Of a DNA stretch of 64,000 nucleotides, positions 2,867-60,707 are shown piece after piece. Source of the stretch: Candidatus Chlorohelix allophototropha. GTDB lineage: Bacteria > Chloroflexota > Chloroflexia > Chloroheliales > Chloroheliaceae. The position numbers and the translations under genes are program-made. The DNA is taken from NCBI RefSeq assembly GCF_030389965.1, contig NZ_CP128399.1:1426001-1490000 (forward strand), read 5' to 3'. Numbering within the stretch: the first letter of the stretch is position 1; every line of letters begins with the position of its first letter. The notes below the pieces were generated by a model that saw nothing but the letters and a program-made list of their open reading frames with translations, was not told where the DNA came from and did no database searches.

Positions 2867-3736
2867 CTATTCTGAAATCAACCCCGCATTTAAAAGGGCA
2901 GAATAGAATTGGTCAGCGTAAAGGTGTATAATACAATATTGGTAAGCTCTATTACTGGATTTTACTTTGATTTCTCCGCTAACCTTTAAATTTTTGTTCA
3001 CGTCATTATGTTTCCAATTATTTAAAATATCCTTATATTTGCTATCTTTCTGTTCGTCATCCGCACAATCTCTCAGTGCTCTAATTGTTGCTATTTGGAC
3101 ACGAAGTAATTGATTACTTAGATCAATGAGTGCATTTGGAAAAAGTAAGTTTATTATCTCGTAAAGATCACACAAAGCGTTTAAACATTGCTTACTATTT
3201 ATAGTCAGTGGCAATGAGTTTGGGTCGTGAAAAAAGCTATTGCGTGTATTTCTTCGATCTTTTATACGATGGAGGATAGAATGTATGAGTTGATTCGCAG
3301 GTAATAGATGACGGTTTTTAACCTCCTCTACAATTTGGCTGAAGCTTTTAAACTTACCTGCTGATATATCTGCGGACCAATCTTCAAGATAAGGATAATC
3401 AGTAAGAATCTTATCTAACTTTTCTATTTGACTAGCTTTACTTTCAATTTCCAAATCGTTTTTAAATGTAGCTAAACCGTTATCAATGTTTTTGCAATAT
3501 TCCTTAAAAGCATTCTGGTGTTTTTTAGTTATAATCAATTTAGCATTTTTCAGTTCTATTAAACATTGTTGCTGATAATCACCACTGTCCTTAATTAACC
3601 AACTCTTCAATGTCAACTCACAAAGATCATCAATTTGAATAAAAACAGATTTTACGTGACGTTCAGGATTAACATTCAGGAGATAGATTTCGTTAGTAGT
3701 TTGAATTAATTCTATCAAATCATCAATATGAGACAT
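2867..3736 (-). CDS. HEPN-like protein linked to restriction-modification genes
   Basis: Protein of 289 residues with no confident family match by eye. It is mostly helical and Lys/Asn/Ile-rich. Residues 165-170 read RNSFFH, fitting the Rx4H signature of HEPN ribonucleases, inside a predicted helix after HSILHRIKDRR. HEPN proteins commonly act as RNases in toxin-antitoxin and phage-defence systems, so an RNA-cleaving or abortive-infection role is an inference only. Its ATG overlaps the stop of the specificity-subunit gene by one base (TAATG), strong evidence of co-translation. Base composition is markedly AT-rich like its two upstream partners and unlike the flanking genes, suggesting joint transfer. 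Confidence 0.6.
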   Translation of the reverse strand: MSHIDDLIELIQTTNEIYLLNVNPERHVKSVFIQIDDLCELTLKSWLIKDSGDYQQQCLIELKNAKLIITKKHQNAFKEYCKNIDNGLATFKNDLEIESKASQIEKLDKILTDYPYLEDWSADISAGKFKSFSQIVEEVKNRHLLPANQLIHSILHRIKDRRNTRNSFFHDPNSLPLTINSKQCLNALCDLYEIINLLFPNALIDLSNQLLRVQIATIRALRDCADDEQKDSKYKDILNNWKHNDVNKNLKVSGEIKVKSSNRAYQYCIIHLYADQFYSALLNAGLISE

Positions 3737-5139
3737 TAATAGGATGCTCCATTAACTATCATATCTTCTATTTGTTGCTTGGCAGTTTCTAAAAGTCGTA
3801 CCGCATCCTCTTCAGCATTTCGTGATTGGGTTAATTTCTCTTGGATTTTAGCACTTAATCTTTTCATTAATTCGTTGTCGAAAAGTGGAATAAGGATTTG
3901 ACGCAAATTGCTTAACCCCAAAAATGGGTTAATTTGTCCAGTAGAGAGTTGCTTTGCTAATAATTTTCCTGCTTCAGAATTTAAGAAGCCAACAATAAAA
4001 TAAGAATAAGGGTTAAATTCAGGTTTTAATCGAAGTAAAGCTATATCCTGGTTTATATTTATTGGACTAGGTAAATTAGTTACCAATACAGCATTACCGA
4101 TACGTCCTTTGATGGTGACTAACAGATCACCTTCATGTAATTGAGTTCGTTTTAATTCATTTTGGTGATGTTCAAGGGTAATGCGATTTTCTGTATTAAA
4201 ATTAATACGGAAATCATAAATATTTTCAGCAGTTAAAAAGGGGATTTCACCTATAGACAAATTATGTCGCAAAGGCGTATGCCCATTAGTTAGGACATCT
4301 AATAAATCCCCTAAAGGAACTAACTGTTTTGGTTTAAGGGTTCTAATAGAATCGATTAATTGATAATATTTTAATCTGAAAAACTCAGCATCAAGACGTT
4401 GAGAATCCATAACTTCGTTAGAATTAGCTATATAAGTTAATTGTGAGGAAAGGTCTTTAATGTTAAGATCTAATTCCTTAATTAGTAGGTTTTCGGCTTC
4501 AACATAAAAAGCTTTTGCTGTATGCCTTAATTCACGCGATTGTGAAACATATGAGGCAATTTCTTCCTCAAAACGAGAATCTAATTTTGGAATTGGAATT
4601 GAAGCTAAATCATCAGGATAAATTTCAATTTGCCCTGAAGACCCACGCTGTCTCTGCTCAATTAAAGCAAGCCCAACTTTTGATTGAAGGAACACGCTTA
4701 TAAATCTCGGGTCTCTTTGAGTAATACCCCTCAATATAGATATATGACCATCAGCGAAAAATGGAGTGTTTTCATCTACATATGTTACACGCCCTAAAGT
4801 TCCTACACCCGTAGAAGTAATTAAAATATCAAGGTTATAAACTTGACCACGAGGATTTTGTTGGTAAAAATCTTCATTTACGTATTCTTGACGTGTATCA
4901 CTGAATCCTTCTTCTCGAATATTTACTGTTCTTAAAACTGGTATGCTTCCATCCCCATTATATACTGGTTGTAGCCCTCTTTTTATGTATTGTGCCACTT
5001 TACCAAGAGGGGTCCATTCAAAACCTTTGACTTTTTTCTCAATATCTGCATAATCCTGTCTAAAATATTCAGAATCTAATCTATGATTTTCATATGTTTC
5101 TACAATACTTCTAACACTCCATAGAGCCAAAATTAACAC
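3736..5139 (-). CDS. restriction-modification specificity subunit (HsdS-type, two target-recognition domains)
   Basis: DNA-sequence recognition subunit of 467 residues with two target-recognition half-repeats. The first begins near TPLGKVAQYIKRGLQP and contains IPVLRTVNIREE. The second begins near VPLGDLLDVLTNGHTP and contains IPFLTAENIYDF. Each is followed by the helical spacer typical of HsdS (for example ELDLNIKDLSSQL and the C-terminal KIQEKLTQSRNAEEDAVRLLE). It sits 8 bases after the methylase-fusion gene and overlaps the HEPN-like gene by one base. It should direct the adjacent nuclease-methylase to its site; the target sequence cannot be predicted here. Confidence 0.88.
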   Translation of the reverse strand: MLILALWSVRSIVETYENHRLDSEYFRQDYADIEKKVKGFEWTPLGKVAQYIKRGLQPVYNGDGSIPVLRTVNIREEGFSDTRQEYVNEDFYQQNPRGQVYNLDILITSTGVGTLGRVTYVDENTPFFADGHISILRGITQRDPRFISVFLQSKVGLALIEQRQRGSSGQIEIYPDDLASIPIPKLDSRFEEEIASYVSQSRELRHTAKAFYVEAENLLIKELDLNIKDLSSQLTYIANSNEVMDSQRLDAEFFRLKYYQLIDSIRTLKPKQLVPLGDLLDVLTNGHTPLRHNLSIGEIPFLTAENIYDFRINFNTENRITLEHHQNELKRTQLHEGDLLVTIKGRIGNAVLVTNLPSPININQDIALLRLKPEFNPYSYFIVGFLNSEAGKLLAKQLSTGQINPFLGLSNLRQILIPLFDNELMKRLSAKIQEKLTQSRNAEEDAVRLLETAKQQIEDMIVNGASY

Positions 5140-5147
5140 TCCTCGTT

Positions 5148-7250
5148 CTATGAATATATGAATTGAAAATTGTTAGCTTTGGCAAATTCAATAAAAGCTT
5201 CGGCAATAGTAGGGCGTATAGGGATATAATTGAGAAGTTCTTCGCAACGTTTCTTATGATCTTCAAGCCTTTTAGGGTTTGTTTTATCACGTTTTAACAA
5301 ATTAGCTAGCTGCTGTTTGAGAACATAATGTATATCAAATAAATCCTGGTCAATTATCTTGTGGTTATAAAGATCGAGCAGAGGTTGCCCAGTCTTATCT
5401 TTAAGATAAATATATTCCCCAGAGTTATCTTTGCCTGGATGTTGGCTGACAGCAAAAAAGATAGGATAATCTGAGAGGGGAAGACAAAGTGGTCCTACTT
5501 CAATATCTTTATTCCACTTTTGTAAAAATAAAACACTAGTTTTTGTGCCAGTATGCGGCTTAAAAGTGTTAACATCCAAACCGACAACTGCGAGAATACG
5601 GCAATGCTCAGAGATAAAGCGACGAATGCGCTCATCACCAATATTATTTAAACGACCTTGAGGAAGTACGATAGCCATTCGTCCACCGGGTTTAAGGAAT
5701 TCTAAATTACGCTCGATAAAAAGTATATCCCGACCAACGCTATTCTGCCATTTGCCTTTACCTTGACGAGCAAGATCATATTGATAAATTATACGGGTAT
5801 CTTTAATGTCTCCTGCAAAAGGAGGATTTGTAAGAATAACATCAAAGTCGAAATAACGAGGAAAGTTATAATTGTCTTCATCCTGTTGAGGATTTTCCAA
5901 AAATCGGCGGCGGCGTTCACGCATGTGAACACGAGCTTCATCACTCCATGATTGAGGATCTAAAGTATTCACTCTGAAAACATGAGTGCGACCATCTCCA
6001 GCAATCATGTTAATTGCTTTTGCGATTTTTACACTTCGAGCATCAAAGTCCAAACCATATACTTTTTCGCTAGCATATTTACGCTGCCATTCTTCTGGTT
6101 TTTGAGCAGTAAGTTCTCCACCCCAAACATGAAAGATACTGTGAACAGTAAAACCACAACTTCCTGAAGCTGTATCTATAACATACTCTTCAAAACGGGG
6201 ATTTAACATTTTGACTGCCATATCAATAACGGGACGAGGAGTAAAGTATTGACCTTTAGCACCTTTAGCAACCTGAGTAACAAGGTATTCAAAGGCTTCA
6301 TCAATAATTTGAAGATTAGCATTAAATAGTTTTAAATCCTGTAAGAAAGAAACGCAACTAGCCAAGTGGGCAGGAGTTAGATCGATCTTTTCACCCGGCA
6401 AGAAAACACCCGGCCATTCCCTCTGAGCTAAAATAAAAAGATTGTTGATTCGAGTGTAAACTTCCTGATAAGTACCTCCAAGCCGAAATGTTACAACACG
6501 ATGTCGGTTCGGGTTATTTTCAGCCATTGATTCATCATAGAGCTTTGCATAAATAAGTTTAAAAACCTCCTCAAAACCATCTACACCAGCATTGGCTAAA
6601 ACAAGATTCTCCATAGTTGTAATGACATCGCGCAGAGAGACTTTTTCAGTAACAAGTTTGTTACGTTCAGCTAACTCATCAATGGTTACTTTTTCATTAA
6701 TAATGTCGTTTAGGGATTGATCAATACGTGGTAGATCGCTAATGCTAAGATAGATATTAGGTTCATCTCTACGCCATACTTCCTTTTGTCTACCATTTGT
6801 CCAAACAGCTATCGGCGCGCCTTGAGCGTTGCAATAGGACTTTAGTTGCTCCTCGCCGTCTTTACGCTTGGGTTTTTTGACTTCTACAATAATATAAGAA
6901 GTGTTTGGGTGGTCTTTTTCACAAATCCAGATATCAGCACGTTTATCAGCTATTGTAGAACCGAATTGTACAGGTTTTTCAAGAGTGATTCGGCTAGGTG
7001 GGTATCCATATTTATGTATAAGCTGGTAAAGAAATAATTGTCGTACTATCTCTTCAGGGGTAGCGAGTCGCTCTTTATTACCAGAGAAATCACGCAGATA
7101 AAGTTTATCGTTTTTTTCGATAAATTCAAGTGCCTCGATTTCATTCTTGTCAAAAATATCAATTGAATGGTCGCTGGTGCGAAAAATATCAGCTAATATA
7201 TTACTATTGGTAGTAGCCAAGCTATTCTCTATCCTCTCTAGATTCAACAA
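5148..7250 (-). CDS. fused HsdR-N-type nuclease / N6-adenine DNA methyltransferase
   Basis: Single polypeptide of 700 residues combining restriction and modification parts. About residues 60-160 resemble the HsdR N-terminal nuclease domain, with a PD-(D/E)xK-type arrangement: RADIWI (Asp) then YIIVEVKKPKR (Glu-x-Lys). From about residue 300 follows an HsdM-like methylase: GQYFTPRPVIDMAV, motif I as DTASGSCGF, and catalytic NPPF in ILTNPPFAG. No SF2 helicase/translocase domain is present and no separate hsdR gene adjoins it. The arrangement therefore resembles BcgI-like type IIB/IIG enzymes more than classical type I. The start is uncertain: TTG at 7250 has no clear ribosome site, but no ATG gives the full nuclease domain. 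Confidence 0.85.
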   Translation of the reverse strand: MLNLERIENSLATTNSNILADIFRTSDHSIDIFDKNEIEALEFIEKNDKLYLRDFSGNKERLATPEEIVRQLFLYQLIHKYGYPPSRITLEKPVQFGSTIADKRADIWICEKDHPNTSYIIVEVKKPKRKDGEEQLKSYCNAQGAPIAVWTNGRQKEVWRRDEPNIYLSISDLPRIDQSLNDIINEKVTIDELAERNKLVTEKVSLRDVITTMENLVLANAGVDGFEEVFKLIYAKLYDESMAENNPNRHRVVTFRLGGTYQEVYTRINNLFILAQREWPGVFLPGEKIDLTPAHLASCVSFLQDLKLFNANLQIIDEAFEYLVTQVAKGAKGQYFTPRPVIDMAVKMLNPRFEEYVIDTASGSCGFTVHSIFHVWGGELTAQKPEEWQRKYASEKVYGLDFDARSVKIAKAINMIAGDGRTHVFRVNTLDPQSWSDEARVHMRERRRRFLENPQQDEDNYNFPRYFDFDVILTNPPFAGDIKDTRIIYQYDLARQGKGKWQNSVGRDILFIERNLEFLKPGGRMAIVLPQGRLNNIGDERIRRFISEHCRILAVVGLDVNTFKPHTGTKTSVLFLQKWNKDIEVGPLCLPLSDYPIFFAVSQHPGKDNSGEYIYLKDKTGQPLLDLYNHKIIDQDLFDIHYVLKQQLANLLKRDKTNPKRLEDHKKRCEELLNYIPIRPTIAEAFIEFAKANNFQFIYS

Positions 7251-25194: not shown

Positions 25195-25992
25195 TTAAGA
25201 ACCAGTTCCCGCTTCCGGTTTCTTTTCTTCTGGTGGAAGTTGCCGACGCTCTAAGCCGTAACTCTCCTTTCCTAAAGTGCGGTAACTGCTACCTCTTAAA
25301 TAAAAAACTTCTCCGTGATGCAATAAACGGTCAATAATCGCCACCATCAAGGCAGTATCACCACCCTCGATCAGTTCGCCCCAGTTAGAAAGGCTTTTGT
25401 TACTGGTAATGATCGTAGCACCTCTGAGGTAACGTCCGCTGATCAGCTCATATAAGGCCGGACCTACACGTGCGTCCATCGGTAAATAGCCCAGTTCGTC
25501 TAATACCAACACCTGACATTTCAAAAGCGGCTCTAAAATCCTGGCTATTTCCTGGCGAGTGCTAGCCGCAATCACTTGGTTCGCCAGTTGTTGAGCCGTA
25601 ATGAACTTTACGGTGTAACCCAACTGCACCATCTTAATTCCGGCTGCAATCGAAAGATGGGTTTTCCCAAGCCCACTTGCCCCGATTAGGAGTAAATTCC
25701 CAGCTTTTTCTACAAAACTGCTGTCGAAATAGCGTAAAATCACGCTGCGCTTCAGTTCCGGGTGGCGACTGAAATCGAATTGTTCCAGGCTGGCTTCAAA
25801 AGGGAAACTGGCTGAGTGCAAACGCTTTTTGAGTTGGTTCTCCTGACGAGATAGCAACTCTTCGCTTAACAATTCTTCTAAAAACTCCCCGTAATCCATT
25901 CCGGTTTCGCGTGCCCGTTCAATCCAATCGCTGTATACCTGTTTTACCCTGCCCAGTTTTAGGCTGGTGAGTTTATGTTCCAGACTATTCAT
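25195..25992 (-). CDS. istB: IS21-family helper ATPase IstB
   Basis: AAA+ ATPase of 265 residues that loads the IstA transposase on target DNA, resembling DnaC/DnaA. Walker A is GASGLGKTHLS (about 103-113), Walker B VLVLDELGYLP (about 161-171), followed by the sensor-like ATIITSNKSLSNWGE. The N-terminal LTSLKLGRVKQVYSDWIERA region is the IstB-N domain. The start overlaps the istA stop by four bases (ATGA), as in most IS21 elements. Full length, apparently intact. Confidence 0.95.
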   Translation of the reverse strand: MNSLEHKLTSLKLGRVKQVYSDWIERARETGMDYGEFLEELLSEELLSRQENQLKKRLHSASFPFEASLEQFDFSRHPELKRSVILRYFDSSFVEKAGNLLLIGASGLGKTHLSIAAGIKMVQLGYTVKFITAQQLANQVIAASTRQEIARILEPLLKCQVLVLDELGYLPMDARVGPALYELISGRYLRGATIITSNKSLSNWGELIEGGDTALMVAIIDRLLHHGEVFYLRGSSYRTLGKESYGLERRQLPPEEKKPEAGTGS

Positions 25993-27512
25993 CCCACCGC
26001 CCTTTCTATTTCATTTTCCTCAGGTATGGCCGAAAAACGGTTGGCCACCAGTGGTTCGTATTCACTGAGTAGCCGTTCCACCGCTGGTTGAGTGGGCTTG
26101 AGGGTAGCGGCATTACTGCCTGAACCCGCTGGCTTGAGTAATAAACCCTTGAGATATTCCGCCCCGTAAAGCTGTTGTTCCGTTGCCAATTCCACCGCCG
26201 CCTGGAATTCTTCCAGCCCTACCTGCTGGGCCAGCGCGTATAGTTGGTGGATTTGTTCACTCATGGTGGCTCTTTGCCGTCGACAGATTACCGCCACATA
26301 CTGGTACACTTGCGGTCCTAAATTTAACAACCAATCCCGCCACACCATGGTTCTGGCTCTGGGTTTGATCTCAAAAGCTTGGGTGTAATGTTCCGGTATT
26401 ACTAAGCGGCGGTTTCGGGAATAACAACGGGGGTGCTGTGCCACCAGTTCCGTACCCCGCCATAACTTCAGCCATTCCCGATGTATCCGGGCTGTCAGGG
26501 TTTGTCCCATTAGTTCCGCCGGTACGCTATATTTGTTGGTCTCAAAAATGACTACCCCTTCCCGGTTTACCACCAGGCTGGTAAATAAACCGTAATCCCG
26601 GGCACTAGCAGGCAATGGGCTGAAGTGTTTACGCTCTATTTCCAGTAAGCTACCCGGAATTTCCCCGGTCGCTGCGCATGTACGCTCGTAATTCACTACC
26701 CCTAACCATTCTTCCAACTGCCTTACCAGATCCGCCGCATCGTAGAATGTACGACCAGCTAGAAAATTGTTTTTGGTATACTTTACCAAATTTTCTACGG
26801 CACCTTTCTGGTTTCCGCTGGCCGGGGCACAGGCTTCCGGGTGAAACTCGAATTCTAGTGCCAGTTTCTGCCACACCGGATGCCACACTGGTTGGTTCTT
26901 TTCATCTCGCCTCAGTACCACCGTCTTCATATTATCCGTGGTAATTACCCACGGTACTCCCCCCATCCGGTTGAGGGCTTCCACCAGGCAGCGCACCAGC
27001 GTTTCTTCGGCCATATCTTTCTGAAAGCTCACATACATAAAACGCGAGTATTTCAGCCGGGCACAGAAAAAGTAGAAGGTTTGGGGTACACTATCTTGTT
27101 TACTGAACAGCACTCCCCGAATTTCACCCCAGTCTATTTGCAAAAACTCTCCAGGTAAGCCCTCAAAACGTATCTGTACCTGATGAGCCTGGTTCTCTCT
27201 GGCTTTTTTGAGCTTGCGCACATAGTCATAGAAGGCGGTGGGTCTGCCACAGTAGGGCTGTTTGGGATCTTCCCACGCTAGTTCCAGCATTCTTTTCACT
27301 TGTAGTTTTTGTTCTAGCCAGCCTTCAATCTGTTCTTTGAAGACTGCCACACTACTTTCACGATTGGGGCGGGTTTGTACCTTGTCGCTAGGTTCATTTA
27401 GCACTCTTTTTACGGTACGGGCATCATGTTGCACTTTGCCCGCAATTACGTTGTAGTTGTCCCCTCGTTTCCGGTGGTACTTTATTGCGCTTCTGGCCAT
27501 AACTTCTAACAT
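25989..27512 (-). CDS. istA: IS21-family transposase IstA
   Basis: Transposase of 507 residues with an N-terminal helix-turn-helix region (RKRGDNYNVIAGKVQHDARTV) and an rve-type DDE core: FLQIDWGEIRG (Asp), WVITTDNMKTVV (Asp) and NQKGAVENLVKYTKNNF (Glu), followed by the IstA C-terminal domain. The three acidic residues are present, so the enzyme looks active. ATG 27512 abuts its AAGGAG; the in-frame ATG at 27500 is an equally possible start. Co-translated with istB. Confidence 0.95.
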   Translation of the reverse strand: MLEVMARSAIKYHRKRGDNYNVIAGKVQHDARTVKRVLNEPSDKVQTRPNRESSVAVFKEQIEGWLEQKLQVKRMLELAWEDPKQPYCGRPTAFYDYVRKLKKARENQAHQVQIRFEGLPGEFLQIDWGEIRGVLFSKQDSVPQTFYFFCARLKYSRFMYVSFQKDMAEETLVRCLVEALNRMGGVPWVITTDNMKTVVLRRDEKNQPVWHPVWQKLALEFEFHPEACAPASGNQKGAVENLVKYTKNNFLAGRTFYDAADLVRQLEEWLGVVNYERTCAATGEIPGSLLEIERKHFSPLPASARDYGLFTSLVVNREGVVIFETNKYSVPAELMGQTLTARIHREWLKLWRGTELVAQHPRCYSRNRRLVIPEHYTQAFEIKPRARTMVWRDWLLNLGPQVYQYVAVICRRQRATMSEQIHQLYALAQQVGLEEFQAAVELATEQQLYGAEYLKGLLLKPAGSGSNAATLKPTQPAVERLLSEYEPLVANRFSAIPEENEIERAVG

Positions 27513-27655
27513 CTCCTTCTCGTAGCTCCTCTCTTCTCACCCTTCTTGCCAATAGTGTTGCTAGAACAACTATTCTACAAAATTGGTCTTCTAAGAGAAA
27601 CCCAAAACGGCATTTTTATCCCGGAATCCTTTTCCTTTCCTTCCCGTATTCTACA

Positions 27656-27660
27656 GCCTT
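27656..27660. repeat. target-site duplication of the IS21-type element (right copy)
   Basis: GCCTT directly after the right terminus TCTACA; same as 25010-25014. Confidence 0.85.
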
Positions 27661-28741
27661 GAGCGATTTGCAATTCGTCGTGTACCAAACTGACTATCGC
27701 CGTCCACAACTCAAACTGGCTCGGATAGCGCAAGCGTGGTTTTTCCCACAACAAATCTTGTTTGTCAAAACGATAGCCGTGTTCTATCGAGTAACGCCTC
27801 TTGTAATACGACCAGACTTGCGTCAGGTCAAGCTCAGTTTGACCCGACCACACATACCAACTTTCCAGAGGGTCATGGGTTTTACCACTGGCTGCCTCAC
27901 GCTGTATTCGGATTATGCTCAGTGCCAGTTCAGGTGCTTCCCTCAAATGCAGCTCAGTCCATGCGCTTACTACCAGTTTGTGTCCATTTTCGTCCGTCCC
28001 AACCCACACTCGCTGCGGCAAACCGTGCGTATTGGGATCATTACATTGGAAACGAGCACCGTGTTTAGCGGGAGCGCCGCGACCTCGTTTCTGCTCATCT
28101 CTCACCACTTTTCGATAGAATACTCGGTTAGACTTGAGCCGCAGCAGCAAGTCATAGTCCTTACTGCTATTTTGAATAAATGCTTTGGTGGGGTAGTACC
28201 GGTCTCCCAGATTGAGCGGTCTTTCAGCAAAATATGGGCGCAATTCGCTCAGTTGCTGGCTGGCTACCTCTGCTGGTGTTTGACTGGTTTTGATCCTGCG
28301 GTTGGAGACAATGTATGTATGGCTACTGGTTTGAGCCGGCACCACCACCACGGTCGAGAATTGCCAACCCACGGTCACGGGCTTATCACAATTGGGCAGA
28401 TTGTGTTTGTAAAGCCAGCCACGATCTGCAGATGTAGTGCTAAAGGGTCGCTCGATATTGGTAGCATCCACTGCCAGTACCAATCTTTCACCATCGAAGG
28501 GATGAGGGGCGTAGCGCACCATGGTTTGCTCGAAGCGAGTTTGGTTAACTTGACCCATTTGCAAAGCCTCATACAAACTGGGCCATTTTCGCTCAAAATT
28601 GGGCGAAAGGGTCAGTTCCAGTACCGATTGAGCCTGGCTTTCTGTCATAAGGGCATCCGCCAGATTAAACAATGCGTCACTGGCGTATTCAAAGCAGTCA
28701 TAGATTTCGTGCCGAAATTCTTTAAGTGTGTTAAGGTTCAT
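27661..28741 (-). pseudogene. N-terminal part of the split IS4-type DDE transposase
   Basis: Carries the catalytic core: LVLAVDATNIERP (first Asp), LGDRYYPTKAF (second Asp) and YKRRYSIEHGYRFDK, a perfect Y-(2)-R-(3)-E-(6)-K box with the catalytic Glu. The genuine sequence stops at ELQIAQG where the IS21-type element begins. Translation would continue into that element to a stop at 27575, adding foreign residues and losing about 80 native C-terminal ones. ATG 28741 has AAAGGA upstream; a TTG seven codons earlier is possible. Activity of the truncated protein is doubtful. Confidence 0.9.
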
Positions 28742-28812
28742 ACGAGTAGTGTCCTTTCTCAATTAGAACATTACTCGTCTGGGCAAGTTGTGCCAACACT
28801 GCTTGCCCTTTG

Positions 28813-55154: not shown

Positions 55155-56129
55155 TTATTCCTCATCCGAGTAGGGCAAGCTGTTAGAGCTTTTCAGCAAG
55201 TAATGATATTTGCCGTCCGGATTGGTATAAGCCGAATAATTTATCCCTGCGTTATTTTGAGCGCGTCCCGTGGGTCGCGATGAAACCGGCTTGTCGGTAG
55301 AGCGCAACATTTTGACCAGAAAGGCCGGGCGATCGCGTACTCTTTCGGCGCTATCAACGTAATCCATCCAGCTTTCCACCGTTTTAAGGCTGGTATGCTG
55401 GCTGATTTCGCGAGCGACTTCCGGCGAAACTCCGTAATCAACCAGCAATTGCTCCACCACCGCCTGTTTGGGGTGGTTGTTTTGATTCAGTTTATTTGGG
55501 TTGTCTTTCTCTGTACGGGGTCTAAAGTTTTGACTCCGGAGGTCTAGATCTTGTGGGTCGGGGTCTAAAATTTGTGCCTTGAGGTCTAAATTATAGACTT
55601 CAGGGTCTAAATCTTGTACCTTGGGGTCTAAAGTTTTGACCCCTGCTGGTTTGCGGTTATGTCTGATTTTGCGCTCTTCCGGTTCGATACATTCATCTGT
55701 ATCAATCGGTTGGGCGGTTTCTACCATACGGAGGCAGTAATATTTTTTGATGCGGGCGAGGTCACGGGCGTCTACCTCTTCCAAAATAAAGCCGTCTTCG
55801 ATGGCTTGTTTCAAGCCATTGCGTACCGATTGTTCGCTGAGGCGTGTGCCTAAATCCATACGCGAACCATCGGTGCGCTTGCGCCCGTAAATAAATTCGT
55901 CAATGGTGATGCGGCGTTTGATGCCGAATTCTTGGAAACCCCAAGTGTGCCTGAGAATATATTCTACTACTTTGAGTTCGGCTAGGCTGTTGATACGGGC
56001 GGTAATGTCCGTCCAGTTGTTGGGCATGCGGAAATAATTGCTTTCCGGTCGTGAGAAACCTGCAAACTCGAATTTATCGGACGGAGAATCGCCATTATCG
56101 GGTTGTTCTGTTGTTGAACGCTTGCCCAT
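55155..56129 (-). CDS. lambda O-like replication initiator with intragenic iterons
   Basis: 324 residues. About 30-130 resembles the winged-helix domain of phage replication protein O: YFRMPNNWTDITARINSLAELKVV, LRHTWGFQEF, then RLSEQSVRNGLKQAIEDGFI (recognition helix). About 165-210 is a 7-residue repeat region (TLDPKVQ, DLDPEVY, NLDLKAQ, ILDPDPQ, DLDLRSQ) coded by the iterons. The C-terminal part (GVSPEVAREISQHT ... VESWMDYVDSAERVRDRPAFLVKMLR) is the conserved tail of many plasmid initiators. It should bind the iterons and load the helicase. No DnaA-type protein is present here. The rest of its operon lies upstream (parB, AAA ATPase). Confidence 0.78.
   Translation of the reverse strand: MGKRSTTEQPDNGDSPSDKFEFAGFSRPESNYFRMPNNWTDITARINSLAELKVVEYILRHTWGFQEFGIKRRITIDEFIYGRKRTDGSRMDLGTRLSEQSVRNGLKQAIEDGFILEEVDARDLARIKKYYCLRMVETAQPIDTDECIEPEERKIRHNRKPAGVKTLDPKVQDLDPEVYNLDLKAQILDPDPQDLDLRSQNFRPRTEKDNPNKLNQNNHPKQAVVEQLLVDYGVSPEVAREISQHTSLKTVESWMDYVDSAERVRDRPAFLVKMLRSTDKPVSSRPTGRAQNNAGINYSAYTNPDGKYHYLLKSSNSLPYSDEE
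55262..55279. promoter_or_regulatory. 18-bp palindrome, copy 1 (inside the initiator gene)
   Basis: CGCGTCCCGTGGGTCGCG; near-perfect palindrome. Also at 58665 and 60717. Confidence 0.75.
55465..55512. other. A/T-asymmetric stretch next to the iterons
   Basis: T-rich on the plus strand (A-rich on the coding strand), immediately beyond the iteron array in the downstream direction, as in the lambda origin. Candidate DNA-unwinding element; evidence is positional. Confidence 0.4.
55517..55640. repeat. six-iteron array inside the initiator gene (candidate origin)
   Basis: GGTCTA starts at 55519, 55541, 55562, 55583, 55604 and 55625, spacings 22, 21, 21, 21, 21. The outer two copies share GGGGTCTAAAGTTTTGAC (55517-55534 and 55623-55640) although 106 bases apart, that is, read in different frames. 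On the coding strand the core is TTTAGACC. Confidence 0.8.
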
Positions 56130-56229
56130 ATAACCTTGCCAGAACCTGTCTTTCAGCTAAACCTACCAATTTACCGGGTAAAAAAGAGATATCTTAATAA
56201 ACTACCGGAGATAGGTGGATGGAACAAGC

Positions 56230-56257
56230 TTGACATGCGACATGGGCAGGGTATAAT
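56230..56257 (+). promoter_or_regulatory. consensus promoter of the antisense RNA
   Basis: TTGACA (56230-56235), 16-base spacer, TATAAT (56252-56257): both hexamers perfect. Reads rightwards, opposite to the initiator gene. Confidence 0.85.
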
Positions 56258-56263
56258 AGAAGG

Positions 56264-56390
56264 ACAAAGGTTTGCATGCCCACATCGGGTAAAATTCAAG
56301 CCAGCCGCATCGGGTAATCCCCCCGGCTATACGCTAAACTTTGAAAAGGACAACCTCTCGCCGCCAAGCATACGAGGTTGTTTTTATTTT
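56264..56390 (+). ncRNA. candidate antisense (countertranscript) RNA to the initiator leader
   Basis: From the expected start near 56264 to the terminator tail at 56390, about 125 nt. The middle carries an AGCCG ... CGGCT stem and CATCGGGTAA twice. It is fully complementary to the leader between parB and the initiator gene on the minus strand. A 13-codon frame (ATG 56276) lies inside and could instead be a leader peptide. Confidence 0.65.
56351..56390 (+). terminator. intrinsic terminator of the antisense RNA
   Basis: CAACCTC (56351-56357) / GAGGTTG (56374-56380), then TTTTTATTTT. Oriented rightwards, where no protein gene on that strand needs it. Confidence 0.9.
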
Positions 56391-56394
56391 GGTT

Positions 56395-57483
56395 TCAGTC
56401 GCCGCTTTCCAACCGCTCTAAATCCTGTCGCAATAGCGTTATCAATTCTTCGCGGCTTAACGGCTTTTCTTTTCCATTGCCTCCCCACCGACGGATGATT
56501 TCAAGATCCGCCAGTTTTATAGAGGGTTTCGGTTCGTTCTCTGGTTCTTCGCTCAGACCGGGCAAAATGGGTTGCTCGTTCTGTTTAGGCTGCTCTTTCT
56601 GCACAAGCTTTGAATTGTGACTGCTCAATTCGCCACCGCCGCGCCGTTGCGCCTTAACGCCCCGGTAGCCTTTTAGCAATTTTATGGCTTCGCTGCTGGA
56701 AGGCTTGCGCCCTAACTGCGTTTCTAATGTGCGAATTGCTTCTGCTGCTACACGCTGACGTTCTCGCGGAATGCGAGAAAGTTCTCGCACTACCCCTACC
56801 CCGTAGCTGAGTTCGCCGCCCGGTTCAATATTGTGAATAAAATCACTAAGAGTAGCCTGAGCTACAAATTGTGAATTATCTAACAAACTATCGGTGGTCT
56901 GATGCAACAAAATTCGGCGTGCTTCTGGGTCAAGATTCTCCGCAATAGAGATGCGTTCGGCTACATAAACCCTGCCAGCCTCGCCGCTTTTGCCCAATCG
57001 CTGTGCGATTTCCGCTTGAGTCATATTGAATTCCGAGGCGAGCAAGTGATAGCTTTCGCCCTCTTCCCACGGAGCAAGTGCGCGCCGTTGTACGTTCTCG
57101 GTAATGGCGTTGAGCAACGAACCTTGCGGGTCGGTTTCGCTCAAAATCAGTACCGGCACTAGCTTTTTGCCAAGTTCGCGTGCGGCGGTAAGGCGACGTT
57201 GTCCGGCGATAAGGGTATAACGGGTATCAGCGTTTGGTGCGGCGGGTTTTTCGCGCATAACCAACAACGGCTGGAGTATCCCCTGCGCTTCGATACTGGC
57301 TTTCAATTCTTCCAACGCCACGCGGTCGAGGGTTTTACGAGGCTGGCGTGGGTTTGGGTCTATCAGGTCAGAGCGAATCCAAGTAAGCCTGCCGGTGGGC
57401 GCTTCGTCCGCGCCTACGTCTTGCTGCCACAACTCGCGCCGTGTTCCGGCAGTATTGGAATTGTTGTTGCGTTTCGCTGTCAT
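56395..57483 (-). CDS. parB: ParB/Spo0J-type partition protein (first copy)
   Basis: 362 residues. ParB N-terminal domain from about 35: LIDPNPRQPRKTLDR, IEAQGILQPLLV, then TLIAGQRRLTAARELG (the GxRR nucleotide loop) and the second box AITENVQRRALAPWEEGESYHLL. A helix-turn-helix follows (MTQAEIAQRLGKSGEAG). The C-terminal half (about 200-360) is long and charged, with RRGGGELSSHNSK. ATG 57483 is preferred (GGTGGGG before it); GTG 57492 is the alternative. It starts right after the AAA ATPase stop, in the same operon, and the antisense-RNA region follows before the initiator. Confidence 0.88.
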   Translation of the reverse strand: MTAKRNNNSNTAGTRRELWQQDVGADEAPTGRLTWIRSDLIDPNPRQPRKTLDRVALEELKASIEAQGILQPLLVMREKPAAPNADTRYTLIAGQRRLTAARELGKKLVPVLILSETDPQGSLLNAITENVQRRALAPWEEGESYHLLASEFNMTQAEIAQRLGKSGEAGRVYVAERISIAENLDPEARRILLHQTTDSLLDNSQFVAQATLSDFIHNIEPGGELSYGVGVVRELSRIPRERQRVAAEAIRTLETQLGRKPSSSEAIKLLKGYRGVKAQRRGGGELSSHNSKLVQKEQPKQNEQPILPGLSEEPENEPKPSIKLADLEIIRRWGGNGKEKPLSREELITLLRQDLERLESGD

Positions 57484-57496
57484 CCCCACCACTAAA

Positions 57497-58369
57497 TTAA
57501 TCTAAACCAGCCAGTTTTACCGCCTGTATAATAGTATGTTCGCTGATTTTGCTTTCGTCTTTTTGCGCGCCTAGCACTAATGCGTGGAAACCGATTTTGC
57601 AAATGTTACGCGGTATCCCATCGCTATAGCGCACGAAAGCCTCCAGCGCGCCTTCATCGAAAATGACATTTACGTTGCCACCCACTACCTGAAGCCGGAA
57701 ATTTACCAAATCCATAACTTCGGACGCACCAAGCTTATTAAGATAACTGTGAGTCACAACGCGCTGCCAGAGGTTTCCACGTCGTTTGATTATGTCAATC
57801 AACTCGGTTTGACCGAACAAGACAACCTGTAGTAACTTTTCTTCGCCCCGCTCAAAATTGCCGAGGTGACGTATGTATTCCAGAGCTTCTTTTCGCAAGC
57901 TTTGTGCTTCATCTATTAGTAGTACAATGTTGTTAAGCTTTAGCTGGGTTTCTTCCAGAATGAACGCCTGCAACTGATCCTGCATACGGCTCACCTGATT
58001 GCTGACCGGGTCTAGCCCGAACTCGCGTACAATGGTGGAGAAAACCTGACTCGGTGTGCCGCTGGGATTACCTACATATGCAACCTTGTAGCCTTCGGTT
58101 ATAGCGATGCGGTCGTACAGAAACTTGGCGGTGGTGCTTTTGCCCGCGCCGACTTCACCATACACCGCTGCAAGACCCTGTCGTTCTCTCAGTACTACCG
58201 AGACGGCGTTAATCGCTTGCAGGTATTGCCCCTTCTGCATAAAGAAGCGCAGGCTAGTGCCGGTAATAGGGAAGGGGTTTTCAGTCAAGCCCCAATGGAA
58301 AAATTCTTTCCCCACCCGGTCGAGTGGCTCCATACGTTGGGTTAGTGAAAACCTGCTAAGCTGGGTCAT
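57497..58369 (-). CDS. ExeA/TniB-type AAA ATPase
   Basis: 290 residues. AAA_22-type fold: N-terminal YLQAINAVSVVLRERQGL, Walker A GEVGAGKST (71-79), Walker B IVLLIDEAQSL (about 147-157), sensor and arginine region LQVVLFGQTELIDIIKRRGN. The C-terminus has the helical lid ending AVKLAG. ExeA-type ATPases serve type II secretion, and TniB/MuB relatives load transposases or replication helicases. Here the context (parB, initiator) makes a helicase-loader or partition role more plausible. First gene of the leftward replication operon. Confidence 0.82.
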   Translation of the reverse strand: MTQLSRFSLTQRMEPLDRVGKEFFHWGLTENPFPITGTSLRFFMQKGQYLQAINAVSVVLRERQGLAAVYGEVGAGKSTTAKFLYDRIAITEGYKVAYVGNPSGTPSQVFSTIVREFGLDPVSNQVSRMQDQLQAFILEETQLKLNNIVLLIDEAQSLRKEALEYIRHLGNFERGEEKLLQVVLFGQTELIDIIKRRGNLWQRVVTHSYLNKLGASEVMDLVNFRLQVVGGNVNVIFDEGALEAFVRYSDGIPRNICKIGFHALVLGAQKDESKISEHTIIQAVKLAGLD

Positions 58370-58577
58370 TTCAGATTAAAACCTTTTTTGATACAATAAA
58401 CGGTATGCTGTTGATATATGTCGCTTTCATGATGATTATAACCTATCGAGTCAAAAAATTGGTCATTTTTCTCATGACAGGTGAAAAATTTATGCCGAAA
58501 TTTCTTGCTCATGTGTAACTTTGCTGGTAATTGTTCACCATCTTGAAAAACACATGTAAATTCTGGGAGTATTTAGG

Positions 58578-58606
58578 TTGACAGGTCAGTGCAAGAGTTC
58601 TAAAAT
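58578..58606 (+). promoter_or_regulatory. sigma-70-type promoter of parA-parB
   Basis: TTGACA (58578-58583), 17-base spacer, TAAAAT (58601-58606), giving a leader of about 120 bases that contains palindrome copy 2. Confidence 0.8.
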
Positions 58607-58664
58607 ATAGAGAGTGAATGGCTATCCTTGATACTGATTACTCAATTACTGAACAACATTTGAT

Positions 58665-58682
58665 CGCGTCCCGCGGGTCGCG
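58665..58682. promoter_or_regulatory. 18-bp palindrome, copy 2 (parA leader)
   Basis: CGCGTCCCGCGGGTCGCG, about 50 bases after the expected parA start of transcription. Likely operator or centromere-like site. Confidence 0.75.
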
Positions 58683-58735
58683 ACGCGCATAACTAACCCG
58701 GTAGAGAACCCCTCCATCCGGTAAAGGACAAAACA

Positions 58736-59521
58736 GTGCCAGCACGCGAAGCAATGAACAGATGTATAGCCAGCGCGAACCAGAAGGGTGGTGTAGGAAA
58801 AACCACTACATTGGTAAACCTTGCGGCTGAAATGGCGAGTCGTGATTTTAAGGTACTGATTATAGACACCGATCCGCAGGAAGCCAGCGCCAGTTTGCGC
58901 TTGTTGGGATCGCGGAAATACAACCGTACTTTGGTAGATGTGTTGCAAGACGAGGCAAAACCGGAGGATACTATTATCCCGGTGACGAAAAATCTTGACT
59001 TGCTACCAAGCGATGCACGCCTGTCGGTGTGGGAACTGAATGCGCTGAACGAAATGGGACGCGAGTTTCTCTTTCGCCGCGCTCTTTCCGATTTCGTAAA
59101 GACTTACGATTATACTTTTATCGATTGTCCGCCTACGCTTGGCTTGATTGTTACAAATTCTCTGATGCTGGCGCGAGAAATTATCGTGCCGGTCAGTCCA
59201 CAGGAACTGAGCGTGGTGGGTCTAACCCAATTCTCAAATACAGTGCAAGCTATTCGCACTACGCTGAACCATGAAAACTTGCGTGTGCTTGGCTATCTGC
59301 TCAATAATGTACCTGCACGTGGCAACGTTTATACTGCTGTAAAGAATGCCGTTCGCAAACAGCTTGGCACATTGGTTTTCAAAACCGAAATACCGAGCAG
59401 TAGTGTTATCCCACAGGCGGAACTAATGCATCAACCGCTCTTGGCGCACGACCCGCGTCACAAAATAACCGAGCTATATTCCGCACTGGCGGAGGAGGTG
59501 ATTGCGCGTGGCAAGCGCTAA
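58736..59521 (+). CDS. parA: ParA-type partition ATPase
   Basis: 261 residues. Deviant Walker A NQKGGVGKTTT (about 15-25), A' motif IIDTDPQEASAS, Walker B YTFIDCPPTLG, and the late PRGNVYTAVKNAV. It lacks the N-terminal helix-turn-helix of type Ia plasmid ParA, so it is the short Soj-like type. GTG at 58736 has AAAGGA before it; ATG 58754 is possible. parB starts inside its last codons. It should move ParB-bound DNA across the nucleoid. Confidence 0.95.
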   Translation: MPAREAMNRCIASANQKGGVGKTTTLVNLAAEMASRDFKVLIIDTDPQEASASLRLLGSRKYNRTLVDVLQDEAKPEDTIIPVTKNLDLLPSDARLSVWELNALNEMGREFLFRRALSDFVKTYDYTFIDCPPTLGLIVTNSLMLAREIIVPVSPQELSVVGLTQFSNTVQAIRTTLNHENLRVLGYLLNNVPARGNVYTAVKNAVRKQLGTLVFKTEIPSSSVIPQAELMHQPLLAHDPRHKITELYSALAEEVIARGKR

Positions 59522-60707
59522 AAAACCCCGCTTTAATGTCGATAGCCTGACCACTATTATGTCAGGCGTGGCTGCTGAGGAGAGTTTGCCCGATGTGCGG
59601 ACGCTCGACCTTGAGTTCCTATTTATAGGAGACCAACCACGCCAATTGCTCGGGCTGGTAGATGAGTTTGAGAACGAGCAGGCGCGGGCGGACTGGATTC
59701 TTCCGGTTCATCAATTCCTCGACCATCTTAAAGCCAGCGCGCAGCAGGATGAAAAATCTGTAGCAGCAACCAGCCTCATTGACCTTGAGAATATGGCGCA
59801 GAGTATTCGTGAGCATGGCGTGTTGCAGCCCGTCTTGGTGCGTTATCAGGAAAGCGAAGATCGCTATATTCTCACCGACGGTCATCGTCGCGCTCTTGCC
59901 TCGGTGCTTGCTGGAAATACCCGGATTGAAGCGAAAATCAAACGTGTTTGGACTTCACACGAAATTCTTTCTGAGCAACTAATCGCCAATCTGCAACGAA
60001 AAGATTTGACCGCTCTTGAACTGGCGCGGGCGATTTCACAACTTCGAGAGCTATATGCCGGTCAACTAAAAGAAACCGAACCAAACATTCATCCCAACCA
60101 ACTTGCTGCTAGAGTGTGGGACAGGTTGGAGGCAAGTTTGGGTATCGGGCGTAGGCAGCTGCAACGCTTGATGCAGGTTAACGAATTCCTTAAAGCGTTA
60201 GACCCAGAACTGGCAGACCTTGCCTCGGATTTGAAGGAAAGGCAATTCCGCCCGCTCTTTCGCTTATCTACCGAGACGCAACCGCTGGCTCTTACGCTAG
60301 TTGCCCTAAATAAAGAGAAATCTTTGCAGGATATTGAACATTTGGTTGAGCGCAGTCTAAGTGGCGCGAACATCTTGAAAATAGCCAGAGAAATGGGTTG
60401 GTCGTTACCCACCTCTCCAACTCCGACACCCCCTCCCAAATCTTCAATTCCCGACATCGCGCTTGATGCAGAGGAAGAAGAAGAAGAAGAGTTGAAAGCG
60501 GTAAATGTTAAGAATGTGCTTTCGGCTCTGAAGCGCATGCCGCGCCAATCTGAAGCTCTCTTGCGCCGTCTCGAAGAAGAGCTTGCGATTGCCCCTGAGA
60601 ATGAAAGAAAGAAACGGCTCTATCGCATCGAGGAAATCGAGCAGGAAGCCTTTAAGCTCAGTCGCAGGCTTGCCGAAATCCGCAAAAAATATATTAATCC
60701 CCTCTAA
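59508..60707 (+). CDS. parB: divergent ParB-like partition protein (second copy)
   Basis: 399 residues. The nucleotide loop is RYILTDGHRRALASVLAGN (GHRR in place of GERR), the second box EQLIANLQRKDLTALELARAI; a helix-turn-helix-like region (GIGRRQLQRLMQVNEFLKAL) follows. The N-terminus is longer than usual: about 75 residues precede DLENMAQSIREHGVLQPVLV. The C-terminus has a Pro-rich hinge, a run of Glu (EEEEEEEL) and coiled-coil (LRRLEEELAIAPENERKKRL). GTG 59508 fits GGAGG nine bases upstream. It overlaps parA by 14 bases. Palindrome copy 3 and the parS-like site follow directly. Confidence 0.87.
   Translation: MASAKKPRFNVDSLTTIMSGVAAEESLPDVRTLDLEFLFIGDQPRQLLGLVDEFENEQARADWILPVHQFLDHLKASAQQDEKSVAATSLIDLENMAQSIREHGVLQPVLVRYQESEDRYILTDGHRRALASVLAGNTRIEAKIKRVWTSHEILSEQLIANLQRKDLTALELARAISQLRELYAGQLKETEPNIHPNQLAARVWDRLEASLGIGRRQLQRLMQVNEFLKALDPELADLASDLKERQFRPLFRLSTETQPLALTLVALNKEKSLQDIEHLVERSLSGANILKIAREMGWSLPTSPTPTPPPKSSIPDIALDAEEEEEEELKAVNVKNVLSALKRMPRQSEALLRRLEEELAIAPENERKKRLYRIEEIEQEAFKLSRRLAEIRKKYINPL

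Follow-up and report, generated by a model that had tools for sequence, protein, structure and literature searches.

The ori of phage lambda lies within the gene of its initiator, O, where the part that encodes the linker carries dyad iterons, with an A-rich strand adjoining them. The textbook rule for bacteria is one origin per chromosome, and to our knowledge the natural exceptions to this rule are a few fused chromosomes. The location of the lambda ori inside gene O has been documented (PMC6022878). In fused-chromosome Vibrio cholerae, the second origin is active in NSCV1 and silent in NSCV2 (PMC6284228), and natural two-origin chromosomes are known from these fused strains; in Cupriavidus necator KK10, a chromosome and a chromid are fused at rRNA operons, as shown against an unfused strain (PMC8729776). 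Skew alone does not prove multiple origins (PMC4403523). The closed genome of Candidatus Chlorohelix allophototropha L227-S17 has been published as replicons of 2.96 Mb, 2.45 Mb, 375 kb, 241 kb and 55 kb, in a paper whose main text makes no mention of a replication origin and presents skew only as a plotted ring (PMC10972752). The genome amounts to 6,086,194 bp in five contigs, of which chromosome 1 (C1) has 2,961,161 bp and contig 2 (C2) has 2,453,413 bp. The window, the whole stretch of DNA analysed here, is 64,000 nt long and corresponds to C1:1426001-1490000 (plus strand); coordinates of the kind 55155-60707 are positions within it.

The window contains a gene that can be compared with lambda O. 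Six copies of GGTCTA start at 55519, 55541, 55562, 55583, 55604 and 55625 on the plus strand, with spacings of 22, 21, 21, 21 and 21 bp, and all lie within a RepO-like gene (55155-56129, minus strand), in the linker between its N-terminal O-like domain and its C-terminal helical part. A recount of positions and spacing thus agrees with an earlier note on this DNA, which had described six such repeats at 21-22 bp in the linker of an O-like gene. The full window holds 15 copies of GGTCTA against 18.9 expected in shuffles, and six within 112 bp is therefore far above chance. The iteron unit is a 21-bp imperfect dyad, with plus-strand copies at 55517-55537 (8/10 dyad matches), 55539-55559, 55560-55580, 55581-55601 (8/10), 55602-55622 and 55623-55643, the last and outermost of which, GGGGTCTAAAGTTTTGACCCC, is the best copy with 9/10 matches; a search for the dyad form elsewhere in the window, allowing up to three mismatches, gave none, with none expected. 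The five copies between 55539 and 55643 share one codon phase and the copy at 55517 has another, and an identical 18-mer, GGGGTCTAAAGTTTTGAC, occurs at both ends of the array (55517-55534 and 55623-55640), where it is translated differently (VKTLDP versus SQNFRP), as the frame-change argument of the earlier note had it. Beside iteron 1 lies an A-rich strand (55480-55509, minus strand), which the same note had put forward as an unwinding element. The A-rich strand is present, but AT enrichment is weak, at 52-58% per 50-bp bin around the iterons and about 70% over these 30 bp, the richest stretch; the feature is better described as asymmetry between the strands than as a peak in AT content, and is a weak candidate for the site of unwinding.

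Synonymous-codon shuffles, in which the protein and its codon usage were held constant, were performed 200 times. The direct-repeat score of the RepO gene is 10, against a shuffle mean of 1.1 and with no shuffle reaching 10, and its palindrome score is 6, against a mean of 1.0 and with 1/200 reaching 6. In the nearest relatives, L136 (59% identical over amino acids 19-151) and L015 (45%), neither the repeat nor the palindrome score is reached in any of 200 shuffles, and the same is true of the direct-repeat score for the C2 paralogue and for L149, L150, L151, L152 and L156. Several further relatives are not significant in these shuffles, and intragenic repeats are therefore common in the family, though perhaps not universal. 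Divergence between the five in-phase copies is 0.39, 0.33 and 0.30 at codon positions 1, 2 and 3, respectively; variability does not peak at the third position, as it would under protein selection. L136 and L015 carry dyads of related design, GGGGTGCAAACTTTGCACCCC and GGGGTCAAAAAGTTTTACCCC, which are also 21 bp long and sit in shifted frames, followed by the 14-bp element CGTACAGAGAAAGA, which adjoins the iterons in the window (55504-55517, minus strand) and is identical in all three genes at a protein identity of 45-59%. The claim that the repeat is conserved as DNA and not as protein is supported on all three counts, and the GGTCTA array appears to be selected as DNA.

The 324-residue product of the gene (P0001) matches the phage profile phrog_678, 'replication initiation O-like', weakly (E=1.1e-3), and its C2 paralogue does so at 2e-8. 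A Pfam scan of the window protein gave no match; PF04492 (Phage_rep_O) is matched by 9/12 of its relatives, and the family profile A1, of which the window protein is itself a member, finds it at 6e-42. By its predicted N-terminal DNA-binding domain, the protein belongs with the Phage_rep_O/lambda O-like initiators. An AlphaFold2 model built without an alignment has a mean pLDDT of 45 and is confident only in the C-terminal helical bundle, and a search of solved structures with the RepO family profile returned just weak matches to winged-helix regulators. RepO has a patchy distribution, being present in 9/399 Chloroflexota genomes. Upstream of it on the minus strand are a ParB-family gene with ParB_N and HTH_ParB domains (56395-57492) and an AAA_22 ATPase gene (57497-58369), the first gene of this AAA-ParB-RepO array, and diverging from the array on the plus strand are a ParA-family ATPase gene (58736-59521) and a second ParB-domain gene (59502-60707). 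The domain scan reported no DnaC match for the AAA_22 ATPase. In an actinobacterial plasmid from Miltoncostaea, genes for an AAA ATPase and a DnaB-like helicase come after that of a RepO relative, and in L015 RepO is followed by an AAA protein that is probably a DnaC/IstB-type loader; by analogy with these arrangements, the AAA_22 ATPase may help to load the helicase. Elsewhere in the window, positions 25195-28762 hold an IS21-type gene pair beside another transposase gene, with identical IS copies across all the large replicons, and positions 2867-7250 hold genes that look by eye like those for the methylase and specificity subunits of a type I restriction-modification system.

At the scale of the chromosome, dnaA lies at C1:664, with DnaA-box clusters at C1:1797-2238 and C1:2,960,310-2,960,676 (9 and 8 boxes, 17 in all), and the RepO gene (about C1:1481157-1482129) lies opposite, less than 1 kb from the exact midpoint of C1, a position that could reflect either chance or selection. 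Third-position keto skew, determined over 82% of C1 with a correction for the strand of each gene, is positive from 0 to 0.987 Mb, negative to 1.481 Mb, positive to 2.144 Mb and negative to the end, and its sign follows these arcs in plus-strand and minus-strand genes taken separately. Its amplitude is about 0.05 in three arcs and 0.031 in the fourth. A fit with four changepoints places them at 0, 0.987, 1.4806 and 2.147 Mb; when fitted freely, the first origin-type switch (ori1) falls at 2.6-3.3 kb, at dnaA, and the second (ori2) between the RepO gene, whose centre is 1,481,641, and the gene just to its left, whose centre is 1,480,295, with a 2-lnL range of 1,476,000-1,481,641 (5.6 kb). The extra segment improves on the one-origin model by 679, whereas the maximum among block shuffles (1000 at each of four block sizes) is 577, and so none reaches the observed gain. 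On C1, both skew switches of the origin type coincide with the locus of an initiator. The earlier note had suggested an origin for the whole replicon and proposed replicon-wide skew as a check: an origin-type switch does lie at the RepO gene, but a role for the whole replicon is not supported, since dnaA, its two box clusters and an equal switch at about position 0 lie on the same contig. The RepO locus has the appearance of an additional origin, with a domain of about 0.99-2.14 Mb. Within 9 kb surrounding ori2 there is one near-match to a DnaA box and no cluster of such boxes, and a search for dif with the Escherichia coli and Bacillus subtilis consensus gave no convincing site. An island of reversed skew and low gene density at about 1.77-1.86 Mb, which contains two ParB-domain genes (1.818 and 1.831 Mb), is probably an integrated element.

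The reading that we consider probable is that the locus is the phage-O-type iteron origin of a former chromid of about 1.16 Mb that is now part of the dnaA chromosome. From homology and architecture, the iterons would be bound by the RepO-like protein encoded by the surrounding gene, with dimers on 21-bp dyads spaced two helical turns apart; RepO would then open the DNA at the A-rich strand next to them and bring in the replicative helicase, perhaps via the neighbouring AAA ATPase, and two forks would depart from ori2 in opposite directions. The skew suggests long-lasting bidirectional replication from ori2, extending about 0.49 Mb on one side and about 0.66 Mb on the other, and the gene, boxes and skew at the opposite pole of the contig show an ordinary DnaA/oriC origin. 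In the simplest history, the dnaA chromosome would have been joined by a RepO-ParAB chromid of some 1.16 Mb, so that a single molecule came to carry two origins. We have good confidence in a second origin in the history of C1 DNA and moderate confidence that both origins are on one molecule, and we put the chances that ori2 fires at present at about even. The skew is a record of history that cannot say which of present firing, silence or past firing on a separate circle applies, being compatible with each. The sole rRNA operon seen on C1 (C1:1308024-1313043, 1.308 Mb, plus strand) is head-on to forks from ori2, as are 6/7 tRNA genes in the ori2 domain (C1:0.99-2.14 Mb), and 11/14 tRNA genes in the ori1 domain are co-directional. 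The head-on orientation of rRNA and tRNA genes in the ori2 domain fits a fused chromosome with a now-silent second origin, as in Vibrio NSCV2 (PMC6284228).

RepO is also found on other large replicons. The only other RepO gene in the genome lies at C2:2,093,517-2,095,005 and carries repeats in its linker; over the surrounding 18 kb, cumulative skew reaches its minimum at 2,091,497, 2 kb upstream of the gene. In sparse samples of C2 (20 kb every 120 kb), skew turns from negative to positive three times, and the three C2 ParB genes (0.460, 1.157 and 2.142 Mb) fall one per switch interval, one of which also holds the RepO paralogue. Of 164 chi-square units, a fit with six changepoints accounts for 139 and one with two changepoints for 49; permutation of the samples reaches the six-changepoint value in 2/40 cases, and three origins on C2 are therefore provisional. 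In G096, a relative from the same class (two contigs, 99% complete), dnaA and RepO are on different contigs, that of RepO being 1.07 Mb long. On the 816-kb plasmid of Miltoncostaea oceani (NZ_CP064357), the samples show mostly negative skew ahead of the interval containing the RepO-AAA-DnaB array and mostly positive skew beyond it, which is weak support because the interval is wide and the samples are mixed. A record labelled Aphanizomenon phage (ON073792.1, L208) has RepO-ParA-ParB together with genes for exopolysaccharide but none annotated for virion proteins, and by its gene content looks like a cyanobacterial plasmid; its skew has no clear pattern over 42.6 kb. It is possible, though we think it doubtful, that multi-origin chromosomes are kept naturally in this organism, with two active origins on C1 (the DnaA oriC and the antipodal O/iteron origin) and three on C2, the genome behaving as several fused replicons of which two are driven by phage-type O initiators.

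We regard it as unlikely that RepO and its iterons are the true origin of a separate circle of about 1.16 Mb that was misjoined to the dnaA chromosome during assembly. A false join was considered because a 4,408-bp direct repeat, 99.96% identical, adjoins both C1 terminus switches and the nanopore reads in the assembly have a mean length of 2.1 kb (PMC10972752), and separate RepO replicons of similar size do exist. The repeat is an ISL3-type element that carries a group II intron and its reverse transcriptase, and its copies lie at C1:987904-992311, C1:2155242-2159649 and C2:667007-671403. All three, including the one on C2, occupy an intact split site, TTTATGATAATTT..CCCTTGACAAAAA, in one or the other orientation and without target duplication, and no uninterrupted TTTATGATAATTT..CCCTTGACAAAAA site was found in the genome; both C1 copies are at skew termini, and the site may be terminus-related. 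The two C1 copies are oppositely oriented within the split site, such that a false join would give mismatched site halves, and the intact halves therefore argue against misassembly at the element copies, short of proof. The flanks of the two C1 elements had been entertained as a fusion scar, a candidate that was dropped since the third copy, on C2, shows that all lie in the intact site. No other pair of long direct repeats brackets both terminus switches in the 82% of C1 covered, and the genome authors published a closed chromosome of 2.96 Mb (PMC10972752).

Another explanation, which we judge quite improbable, is that dnaA is the sole origin and that the extra switches arose from one large inversion, of either 0.987-1.481 or 1.481-2.144 Mb, with RepO-Par as the remnant of an integrated plasmid near a breakpoint. 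One inversion within one arm yields the identical pattern of signs, and identical inverted IS copies are present at 986.2 and 1453.7 kb of C1. However, the best fit puts the switch at the RepO gene; the candidate IS lies 21 kb outside the 2-lnL range, with negative skew in between. The replichores that would result are very unequal, at 72:28 or 33:67. In addition, the rRNA operon and most tRNA genes oppose the local skew, whereas an inversion would flip genes and skew together, and a RepO gene is found at a skew minimum again on C2. It is highly improbable that the repeats are kept for the protein, in which they would form a linker of LDP heptads, or for a function in RNA or as an operator, rather than as an origin, since, although the five in-phase copies encode LDP/LDL heptads and the dyads could also serve autoregulation, the repeats are lost in synonymous shuffles, third codon positions are not the most variable, relatives keep dyads in other frames, an Rfam scan gave no match at the repeat locus, and the C1 skew switch coincides with the repeat-bearing gene.

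The former chromid origin that we favour is new in its lineage, in the association of a phage-O-type initiator with intragenic iterons and a Mb-scale domain, and in how deep its skew signature is. That signature suggests that a phage-type initiator has long driven replication in both directions in a cultured phototroph, and a second origin would correct the published reading of chromosome 1; the organism offers a testable natural system for asking how two unlike initiators share one chromosome and how phage-like Rep genes turn into chromosome origins. The locus resembles the lambda ori in its O-family initiator, in its dyad iterons, which lie within the gene of that initiator, in the linker, at intervals of about two helical turns, and in the A-rich strand beside them, but differs in being on a Mb-scale bacterial replicon with ParAB, in having six iterons of a sequence unrelated to those of lambda, in having no strong AT-rich element, and in having just an AAA_22 ATPase gene and no adjoining P/DnaC gene. 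The Miltoncostaea plasmid and G096 likewise have a RepO-family protein on a large replicon, with ParA in the former and without dnaA on the RepO contig in the latter; there, however, the replicons are separate, and the Miltoncostaea gene has no clear intragenic iterons. C. necator KK10 shares the joining of a chromid to the main chromosome, with the difference that its fusion is at rRNA operons and was compared with an unfused strain, whereas that proposed for C1 is read from one genome. As in Vibrio cholerae NSCV1 and NSCV2, an oriC-type and a plasmid-type origin would share a single chromosome, but here in a member of the Chloroflexota, with an O-type rather than an RctB-type initiator and with long-lived skew on both sides.
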